Below are positions 14,095 to 56,485 of a stretch of 64,000 nucleotides of DNA, piece after piece. Every line of letters begins with the position of its first letter. Positions within the stretch are counted from its first letter, which is position 1. Made by a program: the position numbers and the translations under genes. Origin of the DNA: Frigoribacterium endophyticum (GTDB lineage: Bacteria > Actinomycetota > Actinomycetes > Actinomycetales > Microbacteriaceae); NCBI RefSeq assembly GCF_011759585.1, contig NZ_JAAOYV010000002.1:369510-433509 (forward strand), in the 5' to 3' direction. The notes beneath the pieces were generated by a model. The model searched no databases and was not told the origin of the DNA. It was given only the letters and a program-made list of their open reading frames with translations.

Positions 14095-14165
14095 CCACCG
14101 CCCTATCGTCGAGGAGGCGCGGTGCCGGTCGGCACCCCGCCCCACGAACCGCAGAGGGAGACCCC

Positions 14166-14480: not shown

Positions 14481-14490
14481 CCCGCGCCTG

Positions 14491-14553
14491 GGGAACCCCG
14501 TCGTCACCCCGGAACCCTGCCGCGGCGGGGTTCCCGGGCGAGGACGGGGTTCC
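14491..14553 (+). terminator. Nested alternative hairpins after the ABM gene
   Basis: One left arm, GGGAACCCCGTC (14491-14502), can pair with either of two right arms: CGGGGTTCCC (14526-14535) or GACGGGGTTCC (14543-14553). Both pairings are perfect over 10-11 bp. It begins 10 nt after the stop codon and probably terminates the ABM transcript. The rest of the 199-bp gap up to 14680 shows no gene; it should hold the promoter of the exported protein that follows. Confidence 0.6.
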
Positions 14554-14679
14554 TCTGCGAGAGCGGGTGCCTCGACGTCGAAGTGCCGTGCCCCGCGTCC
14601 CCAGTGGACTCCAGGCTTCCCGCGTACCCTGCTGCCCAGTCGCCGACCCGTCCGGGTCGACCCGAGAGGTGTCGTCACC

Positions 14680-17649: not shown

Positions 17650-17670
17650 GCTGAGCTGGTGGGGCACCGC

Positions 17671-39505: not shown

Positions 39506-39515
39506 GCTGAGGAGC

Positions 39516-39534
39516 TTAGGCTAGCCTTCCCTGA
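39516..39534. promoter_or_regulatory. DtxR/IdeR-type iron box
   Basis: TTAGGCTAGCCTTCCCTGA matches the 19-bp DtxR/IdeR consensus (TWAGGTTAGSCTAACCTWA) at 14 of 19 positions, with the left half TTAGG-TAG nearly perfect. It is placed between the divergent permease operon (start 39505) and the binding-protein gene (start 39645), so one bound dimer pair could repress both when iron is sufficient. Confidence 0.75.
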
Positions 39535-39644
39535 GTTCGACTCCGAGCGCCGCGCCCCCACCCCAGCGGGCCCGCCGGAGCGACTCCCCCGCACCCTGCA
39601 CCGCACCCCCTCTCCCCTGCCCCGCCCCCGACTCCGAGGACCCC

Positions 39645-40649: not shown

Positions 40650-40663
40650 CCGGGAGCGACCCC

Positions 40664-41924: not shown

Positions 41925-43550
41925 CTACGCGGCGCCCACCAGCAGCTCGCCGGGCTCGGCCCCCTCGGCGCCGAACTCGATGCGCCGGTTCGCGACCTTC
42001 TCGCTGAAGAACCGGTCGTGGCTGACGACGACGACCGCCCCGGGGAAGTGCACGAGGGCCCGCTCCATCACCTGCGTGCTGGCCATGTCGAGGTGGTTCG
42101 TCGGCTCGTCGAGCAGCAGCACGGAGGCGCCGGAGAGCAGGCACTGCGCCATCGCCACGCGGGCGCGCTGGCCGCCGGAGAGCGCGCCGATGCGCTGCTG
42201 GAGGTCGGCCTCGGAGAACTGGAACATGGCCAGGAAGCGCGCGACCGACTTCCGGGTGGCCTTCAGGGCCAGGCTGTCGGGCATCGCGTTGACCGAGTGC
42301 GTCACCGTGTCGGCGTCGTCGAGCTCGGCGAGCACCTGGTTGTACGAGACGACCTTGGCGCCGCCGGCCCAGTCGACCCGGCCGCGGTCGGCCGCCTCGG
42401 TGCCCTCGAGCACCCGCAGCAGCGTGCTCTTGCCGCTGCCGTTCGAGCCCACGACGACGATGCGGTTGCCCCTGCGCACCTCGAAGCCGAGGTCGTCGAA
42501 GAGCGTCTTCTCGCCGTAGGCCTTGCCGAGCCCCTCGACGCGGCAGAGCACGTCCTTCACGTGCAGCCCGCCGTAGATCTCGGTGATGATCTGGTCGACG
42601 GGCCGAGGGGTGCGCTGCTTCTTGATCTTGGCGAGGTCCTTCGTGAGGCCGCCCGCGCCTCCCTGCTTCTGCGCCTTCGCGGCCTTGACGGCCTCGCGAC
42701 GGTCGCTGATGCCCTCGGCCTCGAAGGCGAGCAGCTCGTTCTCGTGCGCGAACTGCTGCTCGAGGGTCTTCAGCCGGAACTGCTTCTGCACGACGTACTC
42801 GGCGAAGGCGCCGGGGTACTCGTGCAGGTGGAAGTTCTCGACCTCGACGATGCGGGTGACGACCGCGTCGAGGAACTGCCGGTCGTGCGAGACGACGATC
42901 GCGGCGCCGCGGAAGTCGCGGAACCACTGCTCGAGCCACTCGACGCCGGCCACGTCGAGGAAGTTCGTCGGCTCGTCGAGCAGCAGCACGTCGGGCGCCT
43001 CGAGGACGATCTTCGCGAGGGCCGCGCGGTTGCGCCAGCCGCCGCTCAGGGCGTCGATCGGGCTGGTGCGGTGCGCCGCGTCGAAGCCGAGCACGGTGAG
43101 GGCGGTGTCGACGTGACGGCGATACTCCCAGCCGTCGAGCCGGTCCATCTCGGCGAAGAGCTCGGACTGCCGCTCGATCAGGCGCGTCAGCTCGTCGCCC
43201 TGGTCGGGGTCGACGGCGACGACCGCGATCGCGGCGTCGATCTCGGCGAGCTCGGCCTCCATGGCGCGGACGTCGTCGAAGAGGCCCTCGAGCACCTCGG
43301 TGACGGTGGCGGTGCCGTCGAGCTCGCTGAACTGCGAGAAGTAGCCGAGCCGCAGGCCGTCGTCGACGGTGACCGTGCCCTCGTCGGGCTGCACCTGGTC
43401 GAGGGCGAGCTTCAGCAGGGTCGACTTGCCCGAGCCGTTGCGCCCGATCAGGCCGACGCGGTCGCCGGGCTCGAGGCGGAAGAAGGCCTCGCGCAGCACC
43501 GGCCGCTGCTCGTAGCGCACGGTGACGTCGTTCAGGCGGATGAGGCTCAT
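41925..43550 (-). CDS. ABC-F family ATPase (ribosome-associated translation factor type)
   Basis: The protein has 541 residues, two nucleotide-binding domains without membrane segments: Walker [10 protein letters not shown] and GSNGSGKST, signatures [13 protein letters not shown] and [13 protein letters not shown], Walker [12 protein letters not shown] and [11 protein letters not shown]. The linker between them (about 245-330, with [22 protein letters not shown]) is the helical P-site-tRNA interaction motif region. Such proteins act on the ribosome (EttA/Uup type) or protect it from antibiotics; which one cannot be told. ATG at 43550, divergent from msrBA. Confidence 0.93.
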
Positions 43551-43661
43551 GCCCACCAGTCTCGCAGCCTGCGTCGGAACACTGGACCGGGCCGGGGCGT
43601 TGCACCCCCCGGAGCCGTGCGCACCACTCCGGGTGCGTCCCCGCTCCGAACTGGAGGCACC

Positions 43662-44654
43662 ATGACCACCGAAGACCACGACCACGCACCCACCCCCGAC
43701 GCCCTCGCCCGCCTGACGCCCGAGCAGCGCCGCGTCACCCAGGGCGGCGGCACGGAGCCCGCGTTCCGCAACGAGTTCTGGGACTCCCACGAGGCGGGCA
43801 TCTACGTCGACGTGGTCAGCGGCCAGCCGCTCTTCGCCTCCGTCGACAAGTTCGACAGCCGCACCGGCTGGCCGAGCTTCACCCGGCCGATCGACGCCGA
43901 GAACGTCGTCGAGCGCCGCGAGGGCATGTTCTTCGCGCGCCGCACCGAGGTCAGCTCGGCGGGCGCCGGCAGCCACCTCGGCCACGTCTTCCCCGACGGC
44001 CCCACCGCGACGGGCGGCCTCCGCTACTGCATCAACTCGGCGGCCCTCCGCTTCGTCCCCCTCACCGCACTCGAGACCGAAGGATACGGTTCGTACATGA
44101 CGCTCTTCTCCCCTGAGTCCACCCCCGCCCCCAGCGGAACGACCGAGACCGCGATCCTCGCGGGCGGCTGCTTCTGGGGCGCGCAGCAGCTGCTCCGCCG
44201 CCGACCGGGCATCGTCTCGACCCGTGTCGGCTACTCCGGCGGCCACGTCGCGAACGCGACGTACCGCAACCACGGCGGCCACGCCGAGGCCGTGGAGATC
44301 GTGTTCGACCCGGGCGTGACCTCGTACCGCGAGGTGCTCGAGTTCTTCTTCCAGATCCACGACCCGTCGACGAAGGACCGCCAGGGCAACGACATCGGCG
44401 ACTCGTACCGCTCGGCGATCTTCTACACCTCCGACGAGCAGCGCGAGACCGCCCTCGACACCATCGCCGACGTCGACGCGTCGGGTCTCTGGCCCGGCAA
44501 GGTCGTCACCGAGGTCACCGCCGCCGGCGACTTCTGGGAGGCCGAGGAGGAGCACCAGGACTACCTCGAGAAGCTCCCCAACGGCTACACCTGCCACTTC
44601 GTGCGACCCGGCTGGGTGCTGCCGAAGCGCGAGCAGGCCGTCAGCGCGAGCTGA
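43662..44654 (+). CDS. msrBA: Bifunctional methionine sulfoxide reductase, MsrB-MsrA fusion
   Basis: The 330-residue fusion has an MsrB domain (about 15-135: [33 protein letters not shown] with catalytic Cys123) and an MsrA domain (about 160-315: [10 protein letters not shown] with catalytic Cys170, [33 protein letters not shown]). They reduce the R and S forms of methionine sulfoxide in oxidised proteins. The four zinc-binding Cys of standard MsrB are missing, placing it in the zinc-free class. GGAGG lies before the ATG. The domain order is B-A, and no signal peptide is present, so it is cytoplasmic. Confidence 0.94.
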
Positions 44655-44660
44655 GCCCGG

Positions 44661-44728
44661 GCCCCGCGGTGCGGGGCCGCAGGTCTGCGGGAGGCGCGGT
44701 GCCGGTCGTGCCGGCACCGCGCCTCCCG
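44661..44728. terminator. Double hairpin between msrBA and the M28 peptidase gene, with an 18-bp GGAGGCGCGG-type stem
   Basis: GCCCCGC-GGT-GCGGGGC (44661-44677) is followed by a perfect 18-bp stem (44688-44705 with 44711-44728; left arm CGGGAGGCGCGGTGCCGG) around a 5-nt loop. It lies between convergent genes and can terminate both. The long stem is the same element as at 35057. Confidence 0.88.
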
Positions 44729-44743
44729 TGCGTCCGGGGCCCG

Positions 44744-45946
44744 TCAGAGGAAGTCGGGCGCGGGCGAGCGCGGCGGCCGGCGCAGCGTGGCCACGACCCG
44801 CTCGACGAGCGGCACCGTCCACACGACGTTGGCGGCGATGCCCTCGTTCGGCTCGTCGTCGGGCTGGTGCAGGCGGTGCAGGTCGTTGAACGTCACGAAC
44901 GCGCTCGGCACCCCCGCGTGCAGGAACGACGCGTCGTCGGTGCCGCTCGTCGCGGGGAACCTCGTCACGAGCTCGAGCCCCGGCCGCGTCTCCGCCGCGT
45001 GGTCGAGCACTGCCTGGCGGAACGCCGTCGAGAACGCCTCGGGTGACGCGAACGCCTCGAGGAACGACCCCCGGCCGAGCCCGTCGACGTTGACGACGAA
45101 GTCGAGCGCGTCGAGCTCGTCGGCCGACGCCTGTGCCACGTGGTGCCGCGAGCCGCCGAGGTGCCACTCCTCGGCCGTGAAGAACACCAGGCGCACCGAC
45201 CGCTCCGGCGGCGCGGCCGCCCAGCGCTCGGCGAGGTGCAGCAGGGCGACGGTGCCGCTGCCGTTGTCGTACGCGCCGACCGTGTTGAAGAAGCTGTCGT
45301 AGTGGGCGCAGACGAGCACCCGCCCCTCGCCGGTGCCCGGCAGGTCGACGACGAGGTTGTCGCTGACGGCGGCGTCGACGGGGCCGCTGTCGACCTCGAG
45401 CTCGACCTCGACCCGGCGCCCGTCGCCGAGCCACTCGGTGAGCTGCAGGCCGTCGAGGCGGCCGATCGCCACGTGCGCCACCTCGCGGTCGGAGCCCGCC
45501 GGCAGGGGCTGTGGGGCGGCGGGGCCGCCGTCGCGGGCGTGCAGGTAGCCGAGCACGAGCCCGGCGTCGTCGCGCACGACGAACTTCTGCCAGACCATCG
45601 AGTCGCCCCACAGGCCCTGCGGGCCGACGGCCTCGACCGTGCCGGTCACCGCCCCCGCCGTCGCCCCCGACCACAGCATGGGCCAGGCCGGCAGGAGGCG
45701 CGGGACGGGAGCGAGGACGCCCACGCGGTGCACCGTGCCGGGCTGCCACCCCGGCAGCGAGACCGCCTCGCGGGCGACGGGCAGGCCGACCGCGGCGAGC
45801 CGGCCCTCGAGCCAGTCGGCGGCGGCGGCGATGCCGGCGGTGCCGTGGAACCGCGGGCCGTGGGCGACGAGGGCCTCGAGGTCGGCCAGCGCGGTCGCCA
45901 CGAGGTCGGGGTCGGCGGGCGTGGGGGCGGGGGCGTCGGGGGTCAC
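44744..45946 (-). CDS. M28-family metallopeptidase
   Basis: The protein has 400 residues from GTG 45946 (GTGA overlap). Zinc-site motifs of M28 are present: VCAHYDSFF (His, Asp), AYDNGSGTVALLHLAE (bridging Asp), FFTAEEWHLGGS (Glu-Glu) and TDDASFLHAG (Asp). An inserted PA-like stretch (about 100-170) precedes the catalytic part. No signal peptide is seen, so it likely acts on an imported compound. Relatives are aminopeptidases, carboxypeptidases or glutaminyl cyclases. Last gene of the eight-gene LacI-associated cluster, suggesting it cleaves an amide or peptide bond in the transported substrate. Confidence 0.9.
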   Translation of the reverse strand: MTPDAPAPTPADPDLVATALADLEALVAHGPRFHGTAGIAAAADWLEGRLAAVGLPVAREAVSLPGWQPGTVHRVGVLAPVPRLLPAWPMLWSGATAGAVTGTVEAVGPQGLWGDSMVWQKFVVRDDAGLVLGYLHARDGGPAAPQPLPAGSDREVAHVAIGRLDGLQLTEWLGDGRRVEVELEVDSGPVDAAVSDNLVVDLPGTGEGRVLVCAHYDSFFNTVGAYDNGSGTVALLHLAERWAAAPPERSVRLVFFTAEEWHLGGSRHHVAQASADELDALDFVVNVDGLGRGSFLEAFASPEAFSTAFRQAVLDHAAETRPGLELVTRFPATSGTDDASFLHAGVPSAFVTFNDLHRLHQPDDEPNEGIAANVVWTVPLVERVVATLRRPPRSPAPDFL

Positions 45947-47124
45947 GGGGTGGTCCTCTCGTCGGGAGCGGGCGCGGGAGCTGGGGCCGGGGCCGGGGCC
46001 GGGGCGGGCGTCGAGCACGCCGCGGCGACGGCGGCGGCCGGCACGCCGACCAGCATCTCGACGACGAGGGCGACGTCGTCGGGGGCTCCGCGGAACCACC
46101 AGCTGGCGAAGGTGTCGGTGACCGCCTCGGGGGCGGGGCCGACGACGGGGGTGCCCCGCGCCTCCACCTCGGCGAAGCCGCCGAGGCCGCCGTCGTCGTC
46201 GTAGAGGTGCAGGCCGTCGCCGCGCACGCCGGGCGACGCGTCGGGCTCCTCCGAGTACTCGGCGGAGGGGTCGACGGGGCTCGACCGGACGAAGGCCAGC
46301 GCGCGCCCGTCGGGCAGGGCCCGCACGTGCGCGACCCGGCCGGTGACCTGGGGCGCGGCGACGCCGATCTTGAAGCGGGCGTCGCCGGGCAGCGCGACGG
46401 CCACGCCGCCGACCACCTCCGTGAGCAGCTCGCCGACCGGCTCGTAGTAGTCCGTGACCTGCACGCCCGGGGTGGCGGCGACGAAGGCCGTGCCGCCGCC
46501 CGGCACCTGGTCGAGCAGCCACGACTCGGCCTCCTGCCGGCCCTCCGAGGTGAACCGCAGCCGCACCTCCGTCCGGTACCCGGCGTAGTCGACGGCGTCG
46601 ACCCGGCGACGGTCGTCGGCGCGGAGCCGGAGGTGGCGGAGGGGGTGCGCGGCCGCCGAGACCCGCAGGCGGAGGTCGGCGGTGGCGGCCCCCTCCGGCG
46701 GCGTGTGCGCGTGCAGGGTCGCCGTGCGCCGCAGCTCGGCGACGCCGTCGACGAGGTCGAGCTCGTGCTCGCCGGGGTCGAGCGAGGGCGGCATCGCGTA
46801 GCTGCCCCAGTAGTCGTCGCGGTCGGCGATCATGTACGCGATCTCGGGGCCGACCCACACGCGGTCGCCGCCGACGTTCCAGGCGCCGCTCGCCACGAGC
46901 GCGCGGAGGGCGTCGACGTCGCCGAACTCCGGCGGCAGCCAGTTGGCCGGGGCGCCGCCGTCGAAGAACGGGCCGTAGACGCGCCCGCCCCAGCTCGAGA
47001 CGACGACGTGGGCGCCGGGGCCCACCTCGAGCCGGTGCGCCGGCACGTCGGCCGCGGCGAGGTGGCGCTCGACGAGGTCGAGGTCGAGGACGGCGAGGAG
47101 GCGCGGGTCGGCGGGGCCGGTCAC
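45943..47124 (-). CDS. Unrecognised protein with mutarotase-like features and Ala-Pro tail
   Basis: The protein has 393 residues from GTG 47124, overlapping both neighbours by 4 bp. I cannot assign it. The N-terminal part VVVSSWGGRVYGPFFDGG and NVGGDRVWVGPEIAYM recalls galactose-mutarotase-like beta-sandwich proteins of unknown function (DUF4380/DUF6786 kind), which bind or epimerise sugars. The body is all-beta in character. The C-terminus is an Ala-Pro dipeptide run (APAPAPAPAPAPAP region) encoded by GGGGCC-type repeats (about 45965-46012). Being locked between TenA-type and peptidase genes, it probably works in the same pathway. Confidence 0.75.
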   Translation of the reverse strand: MTGPADPRLLAVLDLDLVERHLAAADVPAHRLEVGPGAHVVVSSWGGRVYGPFFDGGAPANWLPPEFGDVDALRALVASGAWNVGGDRVWVGPEIAYMIADRDDYWGSYAMPPSLDPGEHELDLVDGVAELRRTATLHAHTPPEGAATADLRLRVSAAAHPLRHLRLRADDRRRVDAVDYAGYRTEVRLRFTSEGRQEAESWLLDQVPGGGTAFVAATPGVQVTDYYEPVGELLTEVVGGVAVALPGDARFKIGVAAPQVTGRVAHVRALPDGRALAFVRSSPVDPSAEYSEEPDASPGVRGDGLHLYDDDGGLGGFAEVEARGTPVVGPAPEAVTDTFASWWFRGAPDDVALVVEMLVGVPAAAVAAACSTPAPAPAPAPAPAPAPDERTTP

Positions 47125-47819
47125 GACGCCGCCCCCGCCCCGACGAGGGGGCTCGCGTGGAACTCGTCCTCCGCGGCGAGCATGGCCCGGAACCACCCGT
47201 CGAGCTCGTCGTCGGTGACCGGCGCGGGCAAGGTGTCGACGACCTCGGCGAGGAAGGCCACCTGGGCCCGGAAGCCCGGGGTCACGTGCAGGTCGATCCA
47301 CTCCTGGACGTCGTCGGGCCGGTCGACGGGCGTCGCCGCCGCCACGGAGCACCACCGCAGGTAGAGGGTCTCGGCGGCGAGCAGGCTCGTGACCACGGCG
47401 GGGTACCCGCCCGTGACGAGCACGCGCTCGACCTGCTGCCGGAGGGCCGCGGCCCGGTCGAGCACGACGTCGAGGTCGCCCTCGACCGGCCACCGCGCGG
47501 CGAGCGCCGCGAAGTACGCCGACTGCGGCCCGACCAGGTCGGCGACGGCCGCGGCGTGCCGCTCGGCCAGTTCCCACTCGGGCTGCTGCCAGAGGCACCA
47601 CCCCGCCACCCGCGCCGCGGTGCGCACGAAGTCCCGCTCGACCACGAGGTAGCGGGCGAAGACCTCGCCGGCCACCGTGCCGTCGGCGAGCTGCGTCAGC
47701 AGCGGCACGGCCGCCGAGGCGTCGAGGGCGTCGGCGCAGCGCGCCACGAGGGCGTCGGCGCGCGAGGGCCGCGCCCGGTCGACGGGCCGCCCGGGCAGCC
47801 CGGGCCGCCCGGCCGTCAC
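47121..47819 (-). CDS. TenA/THI-4 family protein
   Basis: The protein has 232 residues from GTG 47819 (GTGA overlaps at both ends). All-helical TenA fold: VARCADALDASAAVPLLTQLADG, FARYLVVERDFVRTAARVAGW, YFAALAARWPVE, ETLYLRWCSVA and EWIDLHVTPGFRAQVAFL. Classic TenA hydrolyses aminopyrimidine derivatives in thiamine salvage, but many homologues serve other pathways. No thiamine genes or TPP riboswitch are nearby, so a role in breaking a C-N bond of the cluster's substrate is more likely. The exact reaction is unknown. Confidence 0.85.
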   Translation of the reverse strand: MTAGRPGLPGRPVDRARPSRADALVARCADALDASAAVPLLTQLADGTVAGEVFARYLVVERDFVRTAARVAGWCLWQQPEWELAERHAAAVADLVGPQSAYFAALAARWPVEGDLDVVLDRAAALRQQVERVLVTGGYPAVVTSLLAAETLYLRWCSVAAATPVDRPDDVQEWIDLHVTPGFRAQVAFLAEVVDTLPAPVTDDELDGWFRAMLAAEDEFHASPLVGAGAAS

Positions 47820-48565
47820 CGGCTGGTCAGCCACGAGACGAGCCCCTGGAAGACCCGGGCGTAGCCGGGCCACTCCTCGCAGAACGCCGGGGGCGCCCAG
47901 TGCGGCGAGCAGTCGCTCGTGAAGACGGCGGTGCGCCCCTCGCCGGCCTCGCCCACGACGACCAGCGGGTCACCGCCGACGCGGGCGAGCTCGACGGCGC
48001 CGGGCTTCACGACCGTGCGGTTGTAGCCGAGCAGGGCCGGCCACTCCCCCTCGGCGCCGCCGAGCGCCGGGTGCGCGGCGTCGACGACGGTCGCGACGAC
48101 CCCCGCCGGGCGCTCCACGCGGTCGTCGCCGACGAGCAGCTCGACCGGCAGCACGGCCTCGATCTCGGTGCGGGCGAAGCCCGCGCGGCCCTGCCAGCCC
48201 GAGAACGACAGGTACCCGCCGATCATCAGCAGCGCGCCTCCGGCCCGCACCCAGCTCGCGAGCTCCTGCACGCGGTCGCGGCCGGGCACGCTGTGCTCGA
48301 AGACGCCGGGCGAGAGCTGCAGCGAGTTGACGCCGATGTCGGAGAGCACGACGACGTCGTACTCGCCGAGCTGCTCGGGGGTCTCGGGGAACTGCGTCGA
48401 GACGAGGTGGGCGGGCAGGTGCACGACCTCGTGCCCCCCGGCCTCGAGGGCCGTGCGCAGCTGCGCGACGCCCTCGGTGTACGAGTGGGCGGTGAACTCG
48501 TCGACGCCCTTGGTGTGGGTCGTCGCGGTGATCCAGCTCTCGCCGGCGATCAGGATGCGGGACAT
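47816..48565 (-). CDS. Glutamine amidotransferase-like protein (GATase1-like, PF07090 type)
   Basis: The protein has 249 residues. RILIAGESWITATTHTKGVDEF opens a flavodoxin-like GATase1 fold, with DVVVLSDIGVNSLQL, WVRAGGALLMIGGYLSFSGWQGRAGF and VFTSDCSPHWAPP. The Cys-His-Glu triad of true amidotransferases is not evident in the usual nucleophile elbow (GGYLS instead of GxCxG), so a non-amidotransferase role is likely. Similar folds act as middle domains of GH42 enzymes and in ThuA-like proteins. It is coupled to the TenA gene downstream; a 50-bp gap with a GGAGGCGCGGTGCCGGTC copy separates it from the hydrolase gene upstream. Confidence 0.8.
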   Translation of the reverse strand: MSRILIAGESWITATTHTKGVDEFTAHSYTEGVAQLRTALEAGGHEVVHLPAHLVSTQFPETPEQLGEYDVVVLSDIGVNSLQLSPGVFEHSVPGRDRVQELASWVRAGGALLMIGGYLSFSGWQGRAGFARTEIEAVLPVELLVGDDRVERPAGVVATVVDAAHPALGGAEGEWPALLGYNRTVVKPGAVELARVGGDPLVVVGEAGEGRTAVFTSDCSPHWAPPAFCEEWPGYARVFQGLVSWLTSR

Positions 48566-48615
48566 GGTGGTGCCTTTCTGGTGGAGACGGAGACAGCGAG
48601 GAGGCGCGGTGCCGG

Positions 48616-49704
48616 TCAGCCGGCCGCGGCCGCGCTCTCGAAGAGGTCGCGCACGTTGCGCGTGCCGAGGCCCGCGACGACGTCGGGGTCGACGCCCGCG
48701 TCGCGCAGCCGGTCGAGGAAGACCGCGGGCACGTACGACAGGCCGTTGCCGCCGTGGCGGCGGAGCATGCTCTTGAGGAAGAGGTCGTGGCTGACCAGCA
48801 GCCGGCGGCCGAACCCGGCGTCGACGAGCCGGCCGACGGCCGCGACCGTCTCGGTCGGCGAGGGCGACTGGCCCTCCCCCGGCAGCGAGAAGCGGTAGGG
48901 CATGCCGACCATGTCGAACTCGAGCCAGACGCCGCGCTCGGCGAGGCTGCGCTGGTAGTCGGGGTCGCCGCCCGACGGGTCCATGTGGCAGAGCACGACG
49001 GCCGTGGGGTCGACGCCCTCGTCGCGGAGGACGACGTCGAGCACGCGCCCGCCGTGGCGGACGAAGCCGGGCAGGTGCACGAACATCGGCAGGCCGGTCT
49101 CGCGCTGCAGCCGGCACGCGGCGCGCAGCGAGCGCTCCTCGCGGGCGGTGAAGCCGGGCGAGACGCCGATCTCGCCGATCACGCCCGAGCGGGGCGTGCC
49201 CGTCTCGGCGGGGTCGGCGCGGTACTGCTCGACGAGGCGAGCCGCGAGGGCGTCGACCGGGTCGGAGGCGGTGGCCCCGGGGTGGAAGCGCTCCAGGTAC
49301 CAGCCGCCGCCGGTGACGACGCCGACGCCGCTCCTCCTCGAGATCTCGGCGAGGCGGCGCGGGTCGCGCCCCTGGCCGTCGCTCGTGAGCTCGATGACGG
49401 TGCCGCCGCCGAGCCCGCGGAAGGCGACCAGCTCGTCGACCGCGTCGTCGTCGCTGTCGAGCACGCAGTTGTCGCGGCAGGCGAGCGGGCGGTCGCGCAG
49501 CAGCCAGGCGATGTCGGGCGTCACGGGCACGTCGAACAGCTCGGGGAACTGCGGGTCGGGCTCGAGCCCGCCCTCCTCGATGCTGTTGATCAGGTGCTCG
49601 TGCGGCAGCACGTATCCGAGGGAGTCGCTCGCCACCGGGCCGAGGACGGTCTGCACGTCGACCACCGCCGTCGGCTCGGTGCCGAACCCGCCGACGCGGC
49701 TCAC
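48616..49704 (-). CDS. Phosphotriesterase-family metal-dependent hydrolase
   Basis: The protein has 362 residues from GTG 49704 (GTGA overlap with the permease). Metal-site motifs: GYVLPHEHL (HxH), VIGEIGVSPGFTAREERSLRAA, where Glu stands in the place of the carboxylated Lys of true phosphotriesterase, FVHLPGF, VLCHMDPS and LLVSHDLF. This Glu variant groups with PHP-type and lactonase-like members rather than organophosphate hydrolases. Substrates in the family are lactones, esters or phosphoesters. It is the first enzyme after the transporter genes, so probably performs the first cytoplasmic step. Confidence 0.88.
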   Translation of the reverse strand: MSRVGGFGTEPTAVVDVQTVLGPVASDSLGYVLPHEHLINSIEEGGLEPDPQFPELFDVPVTPDIAWLLRDRPLACRDNCVLDSDDDAVDELVAFRGLGGGTVIELTSDGQGRDPRRLAEISRRSGVGVVTGGGWYLERFHPGATASDPVDALAARLVEQYRADPAETGTPRSGVIGEIGVSPGFTAREERSLRAACRLQRETGLPMFVHLPGFVRHGGRVLDVVLRDEGVDPTAVVLCHMDPSGGDPDYQRSLAERGVWLEFDMVGMPYRFSLPGEGQSPSPTETVAAVGRLVDAGFGRRLLVSHDLFLKSMLRRHGGNGLSYVPAVFLDRLRDAGVDPDVVAGLGTRNVRDLFESAAAAG

Positions 49705-50735
49705 TGGGTCACCCGGCGGCGCAGCAGCTCGGTCATCGAGCCGCCCCGGAGGTTGATCCAGATCACGATGATCAGGAGGCTGCCCGTGACGATCGGCACG
49801 AGGTAGGGGCTCAGGCCGAGCAGGGTCAGGCCGTTGGTGATGACGCCGGTCAGCACGGCGCCGATGGCGGTGCCGATCACGCTGCCCTTGCCGCCGAGCA
49901 GGTTCGTGCCGCCGATCACGACGGCGGTGATGACCGTCATGGCGAAGTCGACGCCGGAGTTGGCGTCGCCCGAGCCGAGGCGGGCGGCGGTGATGACGCC
50001 GGCCGCGCCCGCGGCGGTGCCGGTGAGCACGAGGGCCATCATCTTGACGAAGCGCGTGTCGACGCCGGCCCGGCGCACCGACTCCTCGTTCGAGCCGATG
50101 CCGGTGACGTACTGGCCGAAGCGCATCCGCTGCAGGGCGACGATGCCGACGACGACCGCGACGAGCGCGAGCCACGCCGGGTAGCCGATGCCGAGCAGGC
50201 GGCCCTGCCCGATCTGCGCGAAGACGAGGCCCGACCCGATGGCGATCGAGTAGCCCTTCGTCATCAGCAGCGCGATGCCGCGCACGATCGACATCGTCGC
50301 GAGCGTCACGATGAACGACGGGATGCCCTGGTAGCTCGAGAACCACCCGTTCACCGCGCCGCAGGCCGCGCCGACGGCGAGGCAGATGACGACGACGAGC
50401 ATCGACTGCATGCCGGTGCGCAGCAGCGTCGCCCCGACGACCGAGACGAGCGCGAGCGTCGAGCCGACGGAGAGGTCGATCATGCCCGCGGTGATGACGA
50501 AGGTCATCGCGACGGCCACGATCGCGGCCGGGGCGACCTGCACGGCGACGTTCCGGAGGTTGGTGCCGGTGAGGAAGGTCGGCGTGCCGATCGAGAACCC
50601 GATGATGACGACGAGGGTCACGACGAGCATCAGCAGCGTCGACTTGTTGACGCGCTGCAGCGCCTCCCAGCGGCGCTGGCGCTCGGCGGCGGCGGGCGGG
50701 GCGGGCGGGGCGGTCTTCGAGGTCGCGGCGGTCAT
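49701..50735 (-). CDS. Ribose/xylose-class ABC transporter permease (RbsC type)
   Basis: The protein has 344 residues and about ten membrane segments after a Pro/Ala-rich cytoplasmic start. ITAGMIDLSVGSTLALVSV and QGIPSFIVTLATMSIVRGIALLMTKG are the RbsC hallmarks, with TAVVIGGTNLLGGKGSVIGTAIGAVLTGVITNGL near the end. Overlaps the ATPase gene by 4 bp (ATGA). Forms the homodimeric channel of the importer. Substrates of this subfamily include pentoses, hexoses, nucleosides, autoinducer-2 and polyols. Confidence 0.94.
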   Translation of the reverse strand: MTAATSKTAPPAPPAAAERQRRWEALQRVNKSTLLMLVVTLVVIIGFSIGTPTFLTGTNLRNVAVQVAPAAIVAVAMTFVITAGMIDLSVGSTLALVSVVGATLLRTGMQSMLVVVICLAVGAACGAVNGWFSSYQGIPSFIVTLATMSIVRGIALLMTKGYSIAIGSGLVFAQIGQGRLLGIGYPAWLALVAVVVGIVALQRMRFGQYVTGIGSNEESVRRAGVDTRFVKMMALVLTGTAAGAAGVITAARLGSGDANSGVDFAMTVITAVVIGGTNLLGGKGSVIGTAIGAVLTGVITNGLTLLGLSPYLVPIVTGSLLIIVIWINLRGGSMTELLRRRVTQ

Positions 50736-51532
50736 GCGGCGGCGCTCCCTTCTCGCGTGATCATGCCGACCAGCGACTCGATGGTGAGGTCGTCGATGCG
50801 GGCGTCGTCGACGCTGCGGCCCTCGTACATGACGGTGATGCGGTCGCAGACGCGGAAGAGGTCCTGCAGGCGGTGGGTGATGAGGATCACGCCGACGCCG
50901 CGGGCGGCGACCTCCTTCACGAGCCGGAGCACCGACTCCACCTCGGTCACCGCGAGGGCGGCGGTGGGCTCGTCGAGGATGAGGATGTCGGGGTCGACCG
51001 AGGCCGCCCGCGCGATGGCGACCGACTGGCGCTGGCCGCCGGAGAGCTGCGAGATCAGCTGGTGGGTCGAGGTGACCCGCACGCCGAACTCCTTCAGCAC
51101 GCCGGCTGCCTCGTCGTGCATGCGCCCCGTGCGGAGGAAGGGCCCGACCCGCGGCTCGCGGCCGAGGAAGAGGTTGGCGGCCACGTTGAGGCTGTCGCAG
51201 AGCGCGAGGTCCTGGTAGACGATGCCGATGTCGCGGGCCTGGGCGTCCGAGGGCGACTGGAACCGCGCCTCCTCGCCCTTGATGCGGATCGTGCCGCCGT
51301 CGTGCTGCACCGAGCCGGCCAGCACCTTCATCAGGGTCGACTTGCCCGCGCCGTTGTCGCCGACGAGGCCGAGCACCTCGCCGCGCGCGAGCGTCAGGTC
51401 GACGCCGCGCAGCACGTCGACGGCGCCGTACGACTTGCGGATGCCGCTCAGCTCGACGAGCGGAGCCGAGGAGTCGGGGGCCGGGTGCGCCGACGCCTCA
51501 CGGGTCGCGCCGGGTCGGGTGGTGTCGCTCAT
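50732..51532 (-). CDS. Ribose-class ABC transporter ATPase, single domain
   Basis: The protein has 266 residues. Walker A GDNGAGKST and MKVLAG are typical of the RbsA/FrcA class; signature LSGGQRQSVAIARA, Walker B LILDEPTAALAVTE and H-loop ILITHRL. Unlike RbsA (about 500 residues, two domains), only one domain is present, as in the fructose FrcA-type systems. The ATG shares one base with the binding-protein stop (TGATG). It energises the permease at 49701. Confidence 0.94.
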   Translation of the reverse strand: MSDTTRPGATREASAHPAPDSSAPLVELSGIRKSYGAVDVLRGVDLTLARGEVLGLVGDNGAGKSTLMKVLAGSVQHDGGTIRIKGEEARFQSPSDAQARDIGIVYQDLALCDSLNVAANLFLGREPRVGPFLRTGRMHDEAAGVLKEFGVRVTSTHQLISQLSGGQRQSVAIARAASVDPDILILDEPTAALAVTEVESVLRLVKEVAARGVGVILITHRLQDLFRVCDRITVMYEGRSVDDARIDDLTIESLVGMITREGSAAA

Positions 51533-52575
51533 CAGCCCTCCAGGTAGTACGAGAAGTCGGCCAGGTTGTCGGGCGTGACGATCGTGATCGGCACGTCGAT
51601 CGTGCTCGGCACGTCGGCGGTGCCGCAGGCGAGGTTCAGGGCCGCCTTCGCCGCCTCCTGGCCGAAGCCGAAGGTGTCCTGCTGGATGACGTCGGTCACG
51701 TAGCCGGCGTTGAGGCCCTCGACGGCGCTGGCCGAGAGGTCCCAGCCGACGATGGTCACGCGGTCCTGCGCGCCCTGGCTCTTGACGGCCGCGACGGCGC
51801 CGTTCAGCGCGGGCTCCCCGGTCGCGTAGATGTACTCCAGGTCGGGGCTGCCGGTGAGCAGGTTCTCGGCCGCGGTCTGGGCGTCCTCGTTGACGTTGTG
51901 GCCGTCGACGACGGTGCCGATCGTCATGCCGCCGGCCTCGACCGCGTCGGTGAAGCCGTCCTGGCGCTGGATCTGGATGGCGCTGTTCAGCGCCCCGACA
52001 ACCCCGATCTCGCCCTCGCCGCCGGTGCGCTCGAGGAAGGCCTCGCCGAGCTGGGCGCCGCCCTCGACGTTGGCGGTGCCGACGTAGGCGTCGATCGCGG
52101 TCGTGTCGTCGACCGAGCCGTCGGCCGCGACGACCGGGATGCCCGCGGCCTTCGCGGCCTTGAGCGCCGGCACGAGGGCCGTGGCGTCGACCGGGTCGAC
52201 GATGATCGCGTCGACGCCCGAGGCGACGAGGTTCTCGACCGCGGTGACCTGCGTGGCGCTGTCGTTGTCGCCGCTGACGATCTGCAGGTCGGCGCCCGCG
52301 GCGTCGGCGACGTCCTGCACGCCCTGGTTCATCTGCGTGAAGAAGGCGGTCTGCTCGTTGATGTCGACCATGCCGAGCTGGAAGGCGCCGCCGTCGTCGG
52401 GCGTGCACGCCGTCGGCACGTCGGTGGGCGTGGGGCGCGCGGCCGAGGCGCCGGAGCCGGAGCTGGAGCCGCCGGACGCGGAGCCGGTGGAGGCGGCGGA
52501 GTCGCAGCCGGCGAGGGCGCCGACGACGAGGACGCCGAGCGCGAGGGCGGCGACGGAGGAGCGGGTCGAGACCAT
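51532..52575 (-). CDS. Ribose-class ABC transporter substrate-binding lipoprotein
   Basis: The protein has 347 residues: signal peptide, lipobox LAGC (Cys about 23), then a Ser/Gly/Ala/Pro linker and a periplasmic-binding type 1 fold (FQLGMVDINEQTAFFTQMNQGVQDVADAAGADLQIVSGDND in parts; LVASGVDAIIVDPVDATALVPALKAAKAAGIPVVAAD). GWDLSASAVEGLNAGYVTDVIQQDTFGFGQEA is the usual third segment. AGGAAGG lies before the ATG at 52575. First gene of the eight-gene cluster. The ligand should be a sugar or sugar-like molecule; nothing in the sequence fixes it. Confidence 0.93.
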   Translation of the reverse strand: MVSTRSSVAALALGVLVVGALAGCDSAASTGSASGGSSSGSGASAARPTPTDVPTACTPDDGGAFQLGMVDINEQTAFFTQMNQGVQDVADAAGADLQIVSGDNDSATQVTAVENLVASGVDAIIVDPVDATALVPALKAAKAAGIPVVAADGSVDDTTAIDAYVGTANVEGGAQLGEAFLERTGGEGEIGVVGALNSAIQIQRQDGFTDAVEAGGMTIGTVVDGHNVNEDAQTAAENLLTGSPDLEYIYATGEPALNGAVAAVKSQGAQDRVTIVGWDLSASAVEGLNAGYVTDVIQQDTFGFGQEAAKAALNLACGTADVPSTIDVPITIVTPDNLADFSYYLEG

Positions 52576-52665
52576 GGGAGAGCCTTCCTGGGGTGGATGC
52601 AGGTGACGTGCGGGAGCGGTGCGGGCGGGGTGCCCGAGGGGCGGGTCCGGCGGGCCGGTCGTGTC

Positions 52666-52679
52666 GGCAATCGATTTCC
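52666..52679. promoter_or_regulatory. LacI-type operator upstream of the ribose-class operon
   Basis: GGCAATCGATTTCC is a 14-bp imperfect palindrome (6 of 7 pairs) with a central CG, 91 bp upstream of the binding-protein start. It matches the site at 52765 (shared pattern GGCAANCGNTTNCC). A TTGACA (52725-52720, minus strand) lies about 40 bp upstream; the -10 is unclear. Confidence 0.7.
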
Positions 52680-52764
52680 CTGGTGGGGTGCACCTAGAGT
52701 GCCGCTCTCGTGTTACGGCTGTCAACGCCCCCGTGTTTCCGATGTGTAAATCCCCACACCGGGG

Positions 52765-52798
52765 GGCAAACGGTTGCCGACCGTGGCCGGGCTACGAT
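52765..52798 (+). promoter_or_regulatory. LacI-type operator and -10 box of the lacI-type gene
   Basis: GGCAAACGGTTGCC (52765-52778), 6 of 7 pairs with a central CG, lies just upstream of a good -10 hexamer TACGAT (52793-52798), so a bound repressor would cover the -35 region. It implies autoregulation by the LacI protein at 52847. Confidence 0.7.
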
Positions 52799-52846
52799 GA
52801 TCGGACCGCCCACGGCGCACCGCGCCGGGCCCGGTCAGAGGAGTCC

Positions 52847-53878
52847 ATGAACGCCGTCACCCTCTCCGACGTCGCCGCGCACGCCGGCGTCTCGCCCGCG
52901 ACCGTCTCGCGGGTGCTCTCGGCGTCCCGGCCCGTCGGCCGCGAGGTCGAGGCCCGGGTGCGGCGGGCCGCGGAGGAGCTCGGCTACGCCGGCAACGGCA
53001 TCGCCCGCGCGCTCCGCACCCGGCGCACCGACACCGTCGGCATGGTCGTGCCGAGCATCCTCAACCCGTTCTTCACGGCGCTCGTCGACAGCATGGAGAA
53101 CGCGCTGCACGCCGAGGGCAAGCACCTCTTCCTCTGCGACTCCCGGCACAGCGCCGCCGTCGAGGCCGAGCACCTGCGGTCGCTCATCGAGCGCCACGTC
53201 GACGGCATCGTGGTCAGCCCCGTGCACGACGCCGACAGCGCCCCGGCGGTCGAGCGGTCGGCCCGCTCGGTGCCGCTCGTCCAGCTCGACCGCCGGGTCG
53301 ACGTGCCGGGCACCGACTGGATCGGCCTCGACGACATCGAGGCCATGAAGCTCGTGCTGACCCACCTGGCGGCCACCGGCGTGCGGAGCGCCGCGTTCGT
53401 GACGTCCGAGCTGACCAACTCGTCGACCTCGCTGCGCCTCGAGGGGTTCCGTCGCTGGACGGCGGCCCTCGGCATCCGCGTCGTCGCCGACGGCGTCGTG
53501 CTCGGCGACTTCGCCGTCGACAGCGGAGACGCGGCCGGCCGTCGGCTGCTCGACTCCGACGACCGGCCCGACGCGGTCGTCTGCGCCGACGACCTCATCG
53601 CGATCGGCGTGCTGCGGGCCGCGAGGGACCGCGGCGTGGCGGTGCCGGGCGAACTGCAGGTGACGGGCATCGACGACATCGTCTTCGCGTCGTACGTCAC
53701 GCCGGCCCTCACCACCCTGGCCCAGCCCACCGACCGGATGGCGGCGGAGGCCCTCCGCCTCCTCTCGCGGCGCGCCGACGCGCCCCGCGGCGAGGGCGGC
53801 GGCGCGCGCGTGTCGTTCGCGCCGCGGCTCGTGGTGCGGCAGAGCACCGCCGAGGTGCCGGGGGCGGGGCCGGCCTAG
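52847..53878 (+). CDS. LacI-family regulator of the ribose-class operon
   Basis: The protein has 343 residues. The helix-turn-helix VTLSDVAAHAGVSPATVSRVLSASRPVGREVEARV leads into a hinge and a sugar-binding core: VGMVVPSILNPFFTALVDSMENAL, HVDGIVVSPV, DAVVCADDLIAIGVLRAARDRG and TGIDDIVFASYVTPALTTLAQP. AGAGGAG precedes the ATG. It is divergent from the eight-gene cluster with two matching operators in between, so it very likely controls the cluster and itself. The end of the gene runs into the triplicated repeat at 53869. Confidence 0.94.
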   Translation: MNAVTLSDVAAHAGVSPATVSRVLSASRPVGREVEARVRRAAEELGYAGNGIARALRTRRTDTVGMVVPSILNPFFTALVDSMENALHAEGKHLFLCDSRHSAAVEAEHLRSLIERHVDGIVVSPVHDADSAPAVERSARSVPLVQLDRRVDVPGTDWIGLDDIEAMKLVLTHLAATGVRSAAFVTSELTNSSTSLRLEGFRRWTAALGIRVVADGVVLGDFAVDSGDAAGRRLLDSDDRPDAVVCADDLIAIGVLRAARDRGVAVPGELQVTGIDDIVFASYVTPALTTLAQPTDRMAAEALRLLSRRADAPRGEGGGARVSFAPRLVVRQSTAEVPGAGPA

Positions 53879-53946
53879 GGGGTCGGGGCCGGGGCCGGGG
53901 CCGGGGCCGGCCTAGCGGGTCGGGGTCGGGGCCGGGGCCGGCCTAG
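53869..53946. repeat. Triplicated junction between convergent genes (GCCGGCCTAG unit)
   Basis: GCCGGCCTAG occurs at 53869, 53906 and 53937, each followed by GGGTCGGGG-type sequence. The first copy supplies the TAG of the LacI gene and the third the stop of the convergent M20 gene. The middle copy would end both reading directions as well. This looks like a recent slippage or tandem duplication of the gene-end region. Confidence 0.8.
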
Positions 53947-55145
53947 CGGGTCGGGGTCGGGTCGAGGTCGGCCTGGTGGCTCGGCTCCCCGGGCGCCGCG
54001 TCGCCGCGGGCCCAGGCCGTGCCCGCCGCGACGAAGCTCGCCACGCTCTCGTGCACGGCCGCCGTCGGCACCGACTCGTCGACGGAGTGCACGGCCGTCG
54101 GGTCGCCCGGGCCCCAGACCACCACGGGCACGTCGCTCGGCAGGGCGCGCACGAGCACGCTGGCGTCAGTGAAGTACGCGGCCGGCCGCTCGGCGACGGG
54201 GGCCCCGAGGCCGGCGAGCCAGGGGTGGTCGCGACGCGTCCAGACCGCGCCGAGGTCGAGGTCGACCGTGACGTCGGTCACCTCGGGCTGCGACCGCCAC
54301 CACGCGACGATCGCGGAGACGTCGGTCGATACGACGCGGTGGTCGACGCGGACGGAGCACTGGTCGGGCACGATGTTCGGCACCGAGCCGCCCGAGACGA
54401 CGCCGACGTTGACGCTCTCGCGGCCGAGCTCGGCGTGGTCGCGGAGCGGCAGCCCGTCGAGCCGGCCGAGCACGGCGACCATGTCGAGGACGGCGTTGTG
54501 GCCGCGCTCGGGGGTGCTGCCGTGCGCCGCGACGCCCGCCGTCGACACGGTCAGCCAGAGCGCGCCGCGGTGGCCGAGCACGACCTCGCCGGCGGTCGAC
54601 TCCGGCACGACGACGGCCCCGACGGCCCGCCCCTCGAGCAGGGCCACGAGGGCGGGCGCCCCGAGGCAGCCGACCTCCTCGCCGGTGGTCACGGCCAGCG
54701 CCACGGCGGCCCCGTCACGGAGCAGCCGCCGCACGGCGACGACGGCCGCCGCGAGCCCCGACTTCATGTCGGAGCTGCCGCGGCCCACGAGCCGATCGCC
54801 GACCTCGGTCAGCGTGAAGGGCGGCGAGGACCACGCGGAGGCGCGGGTCGCCGGCACGACGTCGGCGTGCGCCGCGAAGACGAGCAGCGGGGCCCCGGGC
54901 GGGAGCGCGGCGGGGGCGACGAGGAGCGCCGTCGCGCGACCGTCGGGGTCGTGGGCCCACTCGACCCGCGCCTCCGGCACGACCTCGGGCCCCGCCCCGC
55001 CGGGGCCTGCCGCGTGGGCCCGCGTGCCGTCGAACTCGGCGGCCACGCGCCGGAGCACCTCGGCCTCGCCCGGCGAACCGGTGGTCGAGTCGATCGCGAC
55101 GAGGTCACGGAGCAGGGCCAGGACGTCGGGGGCGGGCTGCGTCAT
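53943..55145 (-). CDS. M20-family metallopeptidase/deacylase (ArgE/DapE-like)
   Basis: The protein has 400 residues from ATG 55145. Di-zinc motifs: LLVFAAHADVVP (His-x-Asp), [22 protein letters not shown] (bridging Asp), AVTTGEEVGCLGA (Glu-Glu) and VVPESTAGEV. The dimerisation insert is at AAHGSTPERGHNAV, and VPNIVPDQCSVRVDHRV is typical of ArgE/DapE. HSVDESVP near the end carries the last ligand. It is cytoplasmic and hydrolyses an N-acyl amino acid or dipeptide. It is not co-directional with a pathway that would fix the substrate. Confidence 0.92.
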   Translation of the reverse strand: MTQPAPDVLALLRDLVAIDSTTGSPGEAEVLRRVAAEFDGTRAHAAGPGGAGPEVVPEARVEWAHDPDGRATALLVAPAALPPGAPLLVFAAHADVVPATRASAWSSPPFTLTEVGDRLVGRGSSDMKSGLAAAVVAVRRLLRDGAAVALAVTTGEEVGCLGAPALVALLEGRAVGAVVVPESTAGEVVLGHRGALWLTVSTAGVAAHGSTPERGHNAVLDMVAVLGRLDGLPLRDHAELGRESVNVGVVSGGSVPNIVPDQCSVRVDHRVVSTDVSAIVAWWRSQPEVTDVTVDLDLGAVWTRRDHPWLAGLGAPVAERPAAYFTDASVLVRALPSDVPVVVWGPGDPTAVHSVDESVPTAAVHESVASFVAAGTAWARGDAAPGEPSHQADLDPTPTR

Positions 55146-55168
55146 CGGGTCAGCGTAGCGAGCACCGT

Positions 55169-55226
55169 CGAGGCGACCCGTCCCGGGCCCCCGCCGGCGG
55201 CCGGGAGCCCAGGACGGGGCACCTCG
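55169..55226. repeat. 58-bp palindromic element (copy 2)
   Basis: The arms 55169-55193 and 55202-55226 match at 21 of 25 positions. The arm sequence (CGAGGCGACCCGTCCCGGG at the left) is the same as in the element at 41561-41617, apart from a few changes, many of them compensated in the opposite arm. Here it lies between divergent genes, so it is not only a gene-end terminator. Confidence 0.78.
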
Positions 55227-55276
55227 TCGAGCGCGGCCGCGCAGCGACCGCCGCCGCACCTGGTAAGCAGGGGGGC

Positions 55277-56485
55277 ATGCCCCTCGACGTCGCCGCCCTC
55301 CGCTCCGCCTTCCCCTCGCTCCGCTCGGGCATCGCCCACTTCGACGGCCCGGGGGGCACCCAGACCCCGCTCGTCGTCGGCGAGGCCATCGCCCGCGCCA
55401 TGACCGGTCCCACGTCGATCCGCGGCACGAGCACCCTCGGCGAGCGCAACAGCGAGGCCACGGTCCAGGCGTTCCGTGCCGCCTACGGCGACCTGCTCGG
55501 CGTGCCGGCCCGCGGCGTCGTCCACGGCCGGAGCGCGACGCAGCTCACCTACGACTTCTCGCGCCACCTGTCGGCCGGCTGGGGCCCGGGCGACGAGGTC
55601 GTCGTCTGCCGGCTCGACCACGACTCGAACGTCCGGCCCTGGGTGCAGGCCGCCGAGGCCGTCGGCGCGACGGTCCGCTGGATCGAGTTCGACCCCGCCA
55701 CCGGCGAGCTCGACCACGCCTCGGCCGCCGTCGCGATCACCGACCGCACCCGCGTCGTGGCCCTGACCGCCGCCTCCAACCTGCTCGGCACGCAGCCCGC
55801 CGTCCGGGCGATCGCCGACCGCGCGCACGCCGCGGGCGCGCTCGTCTGGGTCGACGCCGTGCACTTCGCGGCGCACGAGGTCGTCGACCGCGAGGCCCTC
55901 GGCGCGGACTTCGTCGTCTGCTCGCCCTACAAGTTCTACGGGCCGCACTGCGGCGTGCTCGGTGCCGACCCCGAGCTGCTGGAGGGCCTCAGGCCCGCGA
56001 AGCTCCTGGCGTCGACCGACGTGGTGCCCGAGCGGTACGAGTTCGGCACCCTGCCCTACGAGCAGCTCGCCGGGGCCACGGCCGCCGTCGACTTCCTCGC
56101 CGCGATCGCCCCGGGCGACGCCACGACCCGCCGCGAGGCGATCGTGGCGTCGATGCGGGCCTGCCACGAGCACGAGGGCGAGCTGCGCGCCCGGCTGGAG
56201 GCGCGCCTCCTCGCCGTCCCCGGCCTGACGCTGCACTCGCGGGCGGCGCGGCGCACGCCGACCCTCTACGTCACGATCGCCGGGCGCCGCATGCGCGAGC
56301 TGTCGGCGCACCTCGCGACGCGCGACGTGCTGGCGCCGTCGGGGCACTTCTACGCGATCGAGGCCTGGCGCGCGATGGGCCTCGACGACGAGACCACCGG
56401 GCTGCGGATCGGGCTCGCGGCCTACACGGACGACACCGACGTCGACCGGCTGCTCGCCGGCATCGAGGAGTTCGTCGCGGCCTGA
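55277..56485 (+). CDS. Cysteine desulfurase-like class V aminotransferase family protein
   Basis: The 402-residue PLP enzyme opens FPSLRSGIAHFDGPGGTQTP; the PLP-binding Asp193 is in VWVDAVHFAAH and the Schiff-base Lys219 in CSPYKFYGPHCG. RLDHDSNVRPW and LTAASNLLGTQPAV are family marks. True IscS/SufS have an active-site Cys loop that is not evident here, and no iron-sulfur genes are adjacent, so the substrate may not be cysteine. It is divergent from the M20 gene and followed by a large inverted repeat. Confidence 0.88.
   Translation: MPLDVAALRSAFPSLRSGIAHFDGPGGTQTPLVVGEAIARAMTGPTSIRGTSTLGERNSEATVQAFRAAYGDLLGVPARGVVHGRSATQLTYDFSRHLSAGWGPGDEVVVCRLDHDSNVRPWVQAAEAVGATVRWIEFDPATGELDHASAAVAITDRTRVVALTAASNLLGTQPAVRAIADRAHAAGALVWVDAVHFAAHEVVDREALGADFVVCSPYKFYGPHCGVLGADPELLEGLRPAKLLASTDVVPERYEFGTLPYEQLAGATAAVDFLAAIAPGDATTRREAIVASMRACHEHEGELRARLEARLLAVPGLTLHSRAARRTPTLYVTIAGRRMRELSAHLATRDVLAPSGHFYAIEAWRAMGLDDETTGLRIGLAAYTDDTDVDRLLAGIEEFVAA

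Follow-up and report, generated by a model that had tools for sequence, protein, structure and literature searches.

A conserved LacI-controlled cluster in Frigoribacterium endophyticum, possibly for the catabolism of a ribose-like conjugate

The gene cluster and its operators

We analysed a 64,000-nucleotide window of the Frigoribacterium endophyticum genome (contig NZ_JAAOYV010000002.1), which carries a cluster of eight minus-strand genes joining a ribose-class importer to a set of hydrolases, with a divergent gene for a LacI-family regulator. All eight reading frames are open, with 0 internal stops; their start codons were chosen by us, and four are GTG. The cluster begins with a ribose-class substrate-binding lipoprotein (SBP; 51532–52575; Pfam Peripla_BP_4, PF13407, 1.3e-52), a 266-aa single-domain ATP-binding cassette (ABC) ATPase of the ribose/galactofuranose class (50732–51532; ABC_tran, PF00005, 2.8e-33) and a permease of the ribose/arabinose class (49701–50735; BPD_transp_2, PF02653, 4.4e-37). 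These are followed by PTE, a phosphotriesterase-family metal hydrolase of the Glu-bridged Pmi1525/PTER type (48616–49704; PF02126, 1.5e-38), a GATase1_like protein (47816–48565; PF07090, 4.8e-86), a TenA-family protein that lacks the thiaminase II cysteine (47121–47819; TENA_THI-4, PF03070, 6.6e-07), a mutarotase-like protein that is probably a divergent DUF6786 relative with a predicted galactose-mutarotase fold (45943–47124) and an M28-family metallo-hydrolase of the peptidase/amidase fold (44744–45946; PF04389, 5.7e-31). Pfam assigns seven of the eight proteins and gave no match for the mutarotase-like one. Six of the seven junctions overlap, SBP/ATPase by 1 bp and the other five by 4 bp each, leaving PTE/GATase1_like, with a 50-bp gap, as the sole non-overlapping junction. 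Open reading frames and Pfam matches together confirm the gene order and the 1–4 bp overlaps described in an earlier sequence-only reading of the window.

That reading had also described a divergent LacI gene with matching operators, and this holds. The LacI gene (52847–53878, plus strand; PF00356 and PF13377) is separated from the SBP gene by an interval with two operator-like palindromes, read here on the minus strand: GGAAATCGATTGCC (52666–52679), upstream of SBP, and GGCAACCGTTTGCC (52765–52778), upstream of LacI. Convergent (tail-to-tail) with LacI, and beyond the coordinates given in the sequence-only reading, lies the gene for an M20-family hydrolase of the ArgE/DapE type (53943 to ~55145, minus strand; PF01546, 1e-21), the start codon of which is uncertain (55145 or 55259 among the options); its product scored 162 bits against TIGR01910, below the cut-off of 217.6. 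Between 44000 and 56000, no RNA element or riboswitch matched an Rfam model at the gathering score.

Allowing ≤1 mismatch, the pattern GGCAATCGATTGCC occurs at a single site in the 3.32-Mb genome, namely the first palindrome, and no further operator was found elsewhere in this genome at that threshold, for example at a kinase of the same regulon. The second palindrome, 2 mismatches from the consensus, falls below the threshold. A GGCAATCGATTGCC site lies at the cluster in all seven cluster-bearing Frigoribacterium genomes searched and none was found in the four cluster-free ones searched (of nine), while the control, the pattern read backwards, gave 0 matches in 16 of 16 genomes.

Conservation of the cluster and of a wider core module

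Four further Frigoribacterium loci (L011–L014) carry the nine genes and the M20 gene in the same order as the window; L003, L004, L006 and L007, judged by their positions to be the same contigs as L011, L012, L014 and L013, respectively, were counted once. The mutarotase-like gene was found in 6 of 15 other Frigoribacterium genomes searched, and the cluster is thus patchily distributed across the genus; one more genome of the family (G032) gave a strong match. In another genus of the family (L015), all nine genes follow in the same order, with identities from 36% (TenA) to 73% (ATPase), and no M20 gene was found in the locus. The divergent position of LacI is conserved throughout L011–L015. 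Whereas the sequence-only reading had named a lack of joint conservation outside this strain as a point that would count against it, gene order is conserved, including in a second genus. Together, the cluster genes constitute a single conserved unit that has an operator of its own.

More distant relatives keep parts of this arrangement. L098 (G826, 8370–18875) contains a split set, with LacI and GATase1_like–TenA–mutarotase-like–M28 followed, 1.8 kb on, by SBP–ATPase–permease–PTE. LacI, GATase1_like, TenA and M28 lie together in L114 (G777), with an M20 relative (41%) ~3.5 kb beyond M28; no importer or PTE was found in that stretch. Palindromes similar to those of the window lie upstream in L011–L014, L098 and L114. 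All three GGCAATCGATTGCC sites of G826 fall within L098 and serve both operons, the importer operon having a second copy with one mismatch, and the lone site of G777 lies between GATase1_like and LacI. In another family, L060 (G180) has M28–PTE–mutarotase-like–GATase1_like–PfkB alongside LacI and two other importers, and TenA was not found there; a single minus-strand run (3236–17057) joins its M28, PTE, mutarotase-like, GATase1_like, ribokinase-type kinase and two importer sets. L060 and L057 showed no matching palindrome upstream. The mutarotase-like profile, run on 248 genomes of the order, matched solely the window's own genome and G180, and it had no match on plasmids. M20 adjoins LacI in 13 loci (the window, L011–L014, L018, L050, L051 and L053–L057) and was looked for next to LacI without success in L015, L098 and L114; from this distribution, it is probably an additional member of the module.

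We also surveyed plasmids encoding a GATase1_like protein (192 records) and opened 14 records, picked by us for diversity. Seven of the 14, from Shinella, Rhizobium (two), Pantoea, Roseivivax, Agrobacterium vitis and Paracoccus, have SBP, ATPase, permease, PTE and GATase1_like together (L019–L021, L025 and L029–L031), in the order of the window except that the Pantoea SBP is displaced. All seven encode BtpA/SgcQ, whereas the window has the mutarotase-like and M28 genes instead, and LacI, divergent in the window, is co-oriented in L020 and L029–L031. A PfkB-type kinase is annotated in six of the seven; none is listed for L021, the gene table of which has a gap at that spot. TenA and an M20-type hydrolase are each present in four of these loci, both of them in Pantoea. 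The remaining plasmid contexts are varied: M20, LacI, GATase1_like, a DMT transporter and PTE in Streptomyces; a ribokinase, two LacI genes, GATase1_like, a lactonase-like gene and a ribose-type importer in Monoglobus; GATase1_like–LacI–kinase in Rhodococcus and Arthrobacter; GATase1_like with nitrilase and M24 in Klebsiella; kinase–GATase1_like in E. coli; and, in Halorussus, GATase1_like without any of these partners. On the Arthrobacter crystallopoietes plasmid pLDW-10 (L024, 8977–12928), GATase1_like–LacI–ribokinase is followed by a ribose-phosphate pyrophosphokinase, and a nucleoside hydrolase and a nicotinate phosphoribosyltransferase lie close by. L026 (7075–10665) and L097 (5379–10400) offer an alternative context, in which GATase1_like neighbours genes for an M24 peptidase and a nitrilase and accompanies other importers.

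Among 345 genomes of the class, 14, including the window's own, exceeded the PF07090 cut-off, and 7 of the 13 others contain the full SBP–ATPase–permease–PTE–GATase1_like run (L050, L051 and L053–L057). In the family, 28 of 299 genomes exceeded it, including the window's own and G032. Of the 26 other stretches, three have the complete five-gene core, their PTE exceeding 40% identity (L098, L110 and L112), three have a more distant PTE (30–31%; L094, L103 and L104) and 20 showed no PTE; PF07090 alone is therefore no marker of the module. Across 21 loci, the five core proteins rise and fall in identity together (r 0.85–0.95), and the window core is homologous, gene for gene, to the module of Rhizobium, Agrobacterium, Shinella, Roseivivax, Paracoccus and Pantoea. 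The front end (importer, PTE and GATase1_like) appears constant and the tail variable. Such tail differences between genera are what an accidental run of unrelated metabolic genes, sharing no pathway, would produce, as is L114, which has GATase1_like, TenA and M28 beside LacI and its M20 relative at a distance of 7 kb, and in which neither an importer nor PTE was found in the stretch. Nevertheless, the order kept in another genus, the dedicated operator, the split operons with the same operator and the co-varying divergence make such an accident extremely improbable.

The binding pocket and the enzymes

The SBP has the sequence VGALAGCD near its N terminus, which is lipobox-like, and its closest solved chain is 5hsg_A from Klebsiella (9e-70). 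Among NCBIfam models, YtfR and RbsA matched the ATPase best, over their first half only and below cut-off, and AraH/RbsC-like matches of the permease were also below cut-off. The combination of a Peripla_BP_4 SBP with a BPD_transp_2 permease places the importer in the CUT2 class. RbsA is a tandem ATPase, whereas the window ATPase has one ABC domain; single-domain CUT2 ATPases such as FrcA exist, and one domain is compatible with the class.

Binding proteins of 23 module loci were aligned to E. coli RbsB, using the ribose-contact residues of RbsB; position 132, unstable between alignments, was excluded, and the LacI rows of the same alignment were not counted. All 23 retain the RbsB-type F15, F16, D89, R141, D215 and Q235, and all differ from RbsB at N13, N64, R90, F164, N190 and F214, sharing N164, G190, W214 and Ala/Gly/Ser at 90 and lacking Asn at positions 13 and 64. 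The 23 proteins were found by mutual similarity, so part of this sharing is expected; the window SBP is 39–85% identical to the module binding proteins compared. The combination of N164, G190 and W214 occurs in none of 13 SBPs of other importers beside GATase1_like, about half of which align poorly. Klebsiella 5hsg has the same signature in the printed alignment, as do the seven plasmid loci with BtpA/SgcQ, while one importer of L060 has an RbsB-like pocket (N F F N D R I R Y N I D Q). In Actinobacteria, Alphaproteobacteria and Gammaproteobacteria alike, the module thus probably takes the same type of ligand, the residues suggesting a ribose-type core with room for a substituent.

All 22 PTE sequences compared keep the metal ligands H35, H37, E178, H210, H240 and D307, the bridge being formed by Glu178, in agreement with the pattern of Glu-bridged enzymes (HxH, Glu in place of the carboxylated Lys, two His and Asp). 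Its closest solved relative is Pmi1525 (3rhg/4qsf; 2.7e-79), which is reported to have metal-stimulated esterase activity (PMC5341072). Mouse PTER, a member of the same enzyme family with metal residues H26, H28 and E169 that include a bridge Glu like that of PTE, is reported as an amide hydrolase (PMC11374699). A lactonase role for PTE, in a cluster that imports and destroys a signalling lactone, would fit the metallo-beta-lactamase annotated to the N-acyl homoserine lactonase family beside GATase1_like in L022, with ~30% identity matches to it in L052, L058, L091 and L102. We regard such scavenging as improbable, given that the pocket is ribose-type, the partner kinases are ribokinase-type, M20 and M28 are unfit for a pure lactone and Pmi1525 is reported as an esterase.

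Class I glutamine amidotransferases have a catalytic cysteine at the nucleophile elbow. The GATase1_like protein falls outside this class: none of the columns conserved in at least 90% of 23 sequences is a cysteine, and GGYxSF stands at the expected elbow. Its best solved relatives are 2gk3 (9.1e-60), which is probably STM3548, and 3soz (STM1381; 1.1e-59).

Thiaminase II (TenA_C) uses a catalytic cysteine, Cys135 in B. subtilis. In 12 of 12 sequences of the cluster's TenA branch, Ala149 occupies this column, where Helicobacter TenA (2rd3) has Cys, and C–N cleavage by this TenA should be invoked with care because the cysteine is absent. Glu61, Glu150, Tyr153 and Glu217 are invariant in the same sequences, and the best solved relatives, 1z72 and 2a6b (spr0628), have the AExxY pattern in common. 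For M28, conserved columns were computed on 8 sequences. Base-degraded thiamin salvage runs through ThiXYZ–YlmB–TenA, with a thiamin pyrophosphate (TPP) riboswitch upstream, and resembles the window in joining an ABC importer, an M20 deacylase and TenA. The cluster might accordingly salvage or degrade a thiamin-like pyrimidine, its importer taking formylaminopyrimidine or its riboside; the four retained TenA residues and the co-occurrence of M20 and TenA in 8 of 23 module loci (the window, L011–L014, L025, L053 and L057) would suit this. Set against it are the Ala at the catalytic position, the importer of another, ribose class under LacI control, the lack of a TPP riboswitch match within 44000–56000 and the 15 of 23 module loci in which just one of TenA and M20 is annotated or found, leaving pyrimidine salvage with a slim chance of being correct.

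The sequence-only reading had left the mutarotase-like protein unrecognised. The predicted model supports a mutarotase-like fold, and the protein is probably a divergent DUF6786 relative. The window protein itself gave no match to DUF6786 (PF20583) at E ≤10, while five of the eight members of its alignment do match (best 1.5e-07) and the L060 relative scores 32.8 bits against a cut-off of 27. Searching 346 genomes of the phylum for PF20583 gave 0 matches, but so did the control genomes, which makes this result uninformative; the mutarotase-like profile found nothing better than E 0.2 among PDB sequences. A first AlphaFold model from 8 sequences (pLDDT 48.1) was discarded; a second, with two more distant sequences added, reached pLDDT 76.8 and has the GalM/YeaD-type beta-sandwich of the galactose mutarotase-like fold. 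The invariant H306, E319 and E321 are candidates for the catalytic His and Glu of aldose 1-epimerases.

We compared 28 PfkB genes from GATase1_like-bearing stretches with RbsK (29 loci were entered, with no row for L018). Nineteen of the 28 kinases retain the RbsK-like Asp16, GGKGxN, Glu143 and Asp255; six, proteobacterial and BtpA-linked, have Asn at 143; and three are more divergent (L053 and L057, BtpA-linked, and L089, with a weak BtpA match, 26%). In L053 (14430–15152) and L057 (from 14404), GGMxAN and Arg replace GGKGxN and Glu143 of ribokinase, and these genes possibly encode a different kinase type. BtpA had no match in the window's own genome, G005, G032, G180, G203 or G546, and one match each in G526 and G548. 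A BtpA encoded elsewhere in the window's own genome was considered as a missing step and rejected, there being no match. In all four tested genomes with the mutarotase-like gene BtpA is absent, and with few independent cases the alternation of the two is a lead, not a test.

A possible route for ribose conjugates

The sequence-only reading proposed that a modified sugar has a single, dedicated pathway here under LacI control, and the conserved order, dedicated operator, correlated divergence and shared, altered ribose-type pocket support this. Our tentative preference is for a LacI-repressed catabolic operon acting on a ribose-like ring with an ester- or amide-linked group. We prefer a ribose-like conjugate because Salmonella RikA is reported as a ribose kinase, its gene lying beside GATase1_like and PTE relatives (PMC13432705), and because in L060 enzymes of the window type occur together with a binding protein of the ribose type and a kinase of the ribokinase type. 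The SBP, with ribose-type polar contacts and smaller surrounding side chains, would bind a larger sugar derivative for import by the CUT2-type transporter. PTE, as a dinuclear metal hydrolase, would cut the ester or amide of the ligand, and the GATase1_like protein would process the sugar part rather than act as a glutamine amidotransferase. The Cys-less TenA and M28, probably with M20, may strip nitrogenous or acyl groups by C–N hydrolysis. The mutarotase-fold protein could convert the released or remaining sugar into the usable anomer, and a ribokinase encoded elsewhere in the genome (linked in other species) would feed it into the pentose phosphate pathway. In the proteobacterial and two actinobacterial versions, an altered-pocket kinase and BtpA/SgcQ seem to replace these mutarotase and ribokinase steps, so that phosphorylation would come before cleavage.

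This reading has weak points. The window cluster has no kinase, all eight PfkB matches of its genome lying outside the window, and the RikA authors consider that ribose may be an off-target substrate (PMC13432705). As to a dedicated operator, the G032 palindrome upstream of the cluster has another flank, ACGTAATCGATTACGT, its one GGCAATCGATTGCC match lying elsewhere; two G548 matches are off its cluster contig; and G526 has 0 matches. Because G032, G548 and G526 deviate in this way, operator support is limited to the close group, where the LacI regulator looks dedicated to the cluster.

A different substrate, an amide-bearing non-ribose sugar (an N-acyl amino sugar, a glycosylamine or an Amadori compound) from which PTE, TenA, M28 and M20 strip acyl or amino groups, would account for the C–N hydrolase families around the core or GATase1_like (several M20 types, M28, TenA, nitrilase and M24), for a pocket that seems roomier than that of RbsB and for the amide hydrolase activity of mouse PTER (PMC11374699). 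It is unlikely, since ribose-type features appear to mark many of the linked kinases as well as one importer, and the cluster's Pfam matches include no deacetylase, deaminase or deglycase (NagA, NagB or FrlB). These enzymes are typical of amino-sugar or Amadori use. The sequence-only reading had proposed an amide- or amine-bearing sugar: its amide part is plausible in light of M20, M28 and TenA, while an amino sugar is unsupported, the ribokinase-type kinases of related clusters, the ribose-type SBP of L060 and RikA all pointing to a ribose-like sugar.

Extending the ribose-conjugate reading, the module might, more speculatively still, be a widespread route for conjugates such as acyl-ribosides, ribosylated amino acids or ring-opened nucleosides. 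Its front end would be fixed and its back end would come in two interchangeable forms. In one, with the mutarotase-fold protein and M28, the conjugate would be cleaved and the free sugar then phosphorylated; in the other, with the altered-pocket kinase and BtpA/SgcQ, phosphorylation would precede cleavage. If true, BtpA/SgcQ, DUF6786, PF07090 and the Cys-less TenA branch, all of which the module already ties to one importer, would each gain a first function.

Ribose-class importers that are under LacI control and accompanied by catabolic enzymes are a known kind of system, and the window variant adds the mutarotase-like and M28 genes. E. coli rbsDACBKR likewise pairs a ribose-class importer with a LacI-family regulator, and its RbsD pyranase could match the mutarotase-fold protein in role, whereas the operon has no hydrolases and the RbsB pocket differs from that of the window at the six positions given above. 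The nearest published relative is the Salmonella rikA–STM3548–STM3549–STM3550 locus, which places PF07090 and PF02126 proteins in one locus and is itself described as perhaps encoding a pathway whose substrate is unknown (PMC13432705, 2026). The module's Salmonella form has thus been touched on, and the sequence-only reading, which could match the cluster to no described route, remains in agreement with the literature searched. That locus has a DMT-family transporter and the linked RikA kinase, whereas the window has an ABC importer and no linked kinase, and the excerpts name no TenA, M28, mutarotase-like or M20 gene there (PMC13432705). No homologous cluster already assigned to a known pathway was found in the open-licence literature, which leaves subscription journals mostly outside. 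With the same pocket signature in Actinobacteria, Alphaproteobacteria and Gammaproteobacteria, a single ligand could point to the substrate of a module that many soil- and plant-associated bacteria carry, and perhaps to that of the Salmonella rikA locus as well.

Beyond the M28 end of the cluster, a long plus-strand open reading frame (42018–44654) has SelR (MsrB) and PMSR (MsrA) domains in its final third, and another (38333–41527, plus strand) has siderophore-interacting FAD-binding domains toward its 3' end. An msrA gene is also annotated near GATase1_like in L020, L021 and L022.

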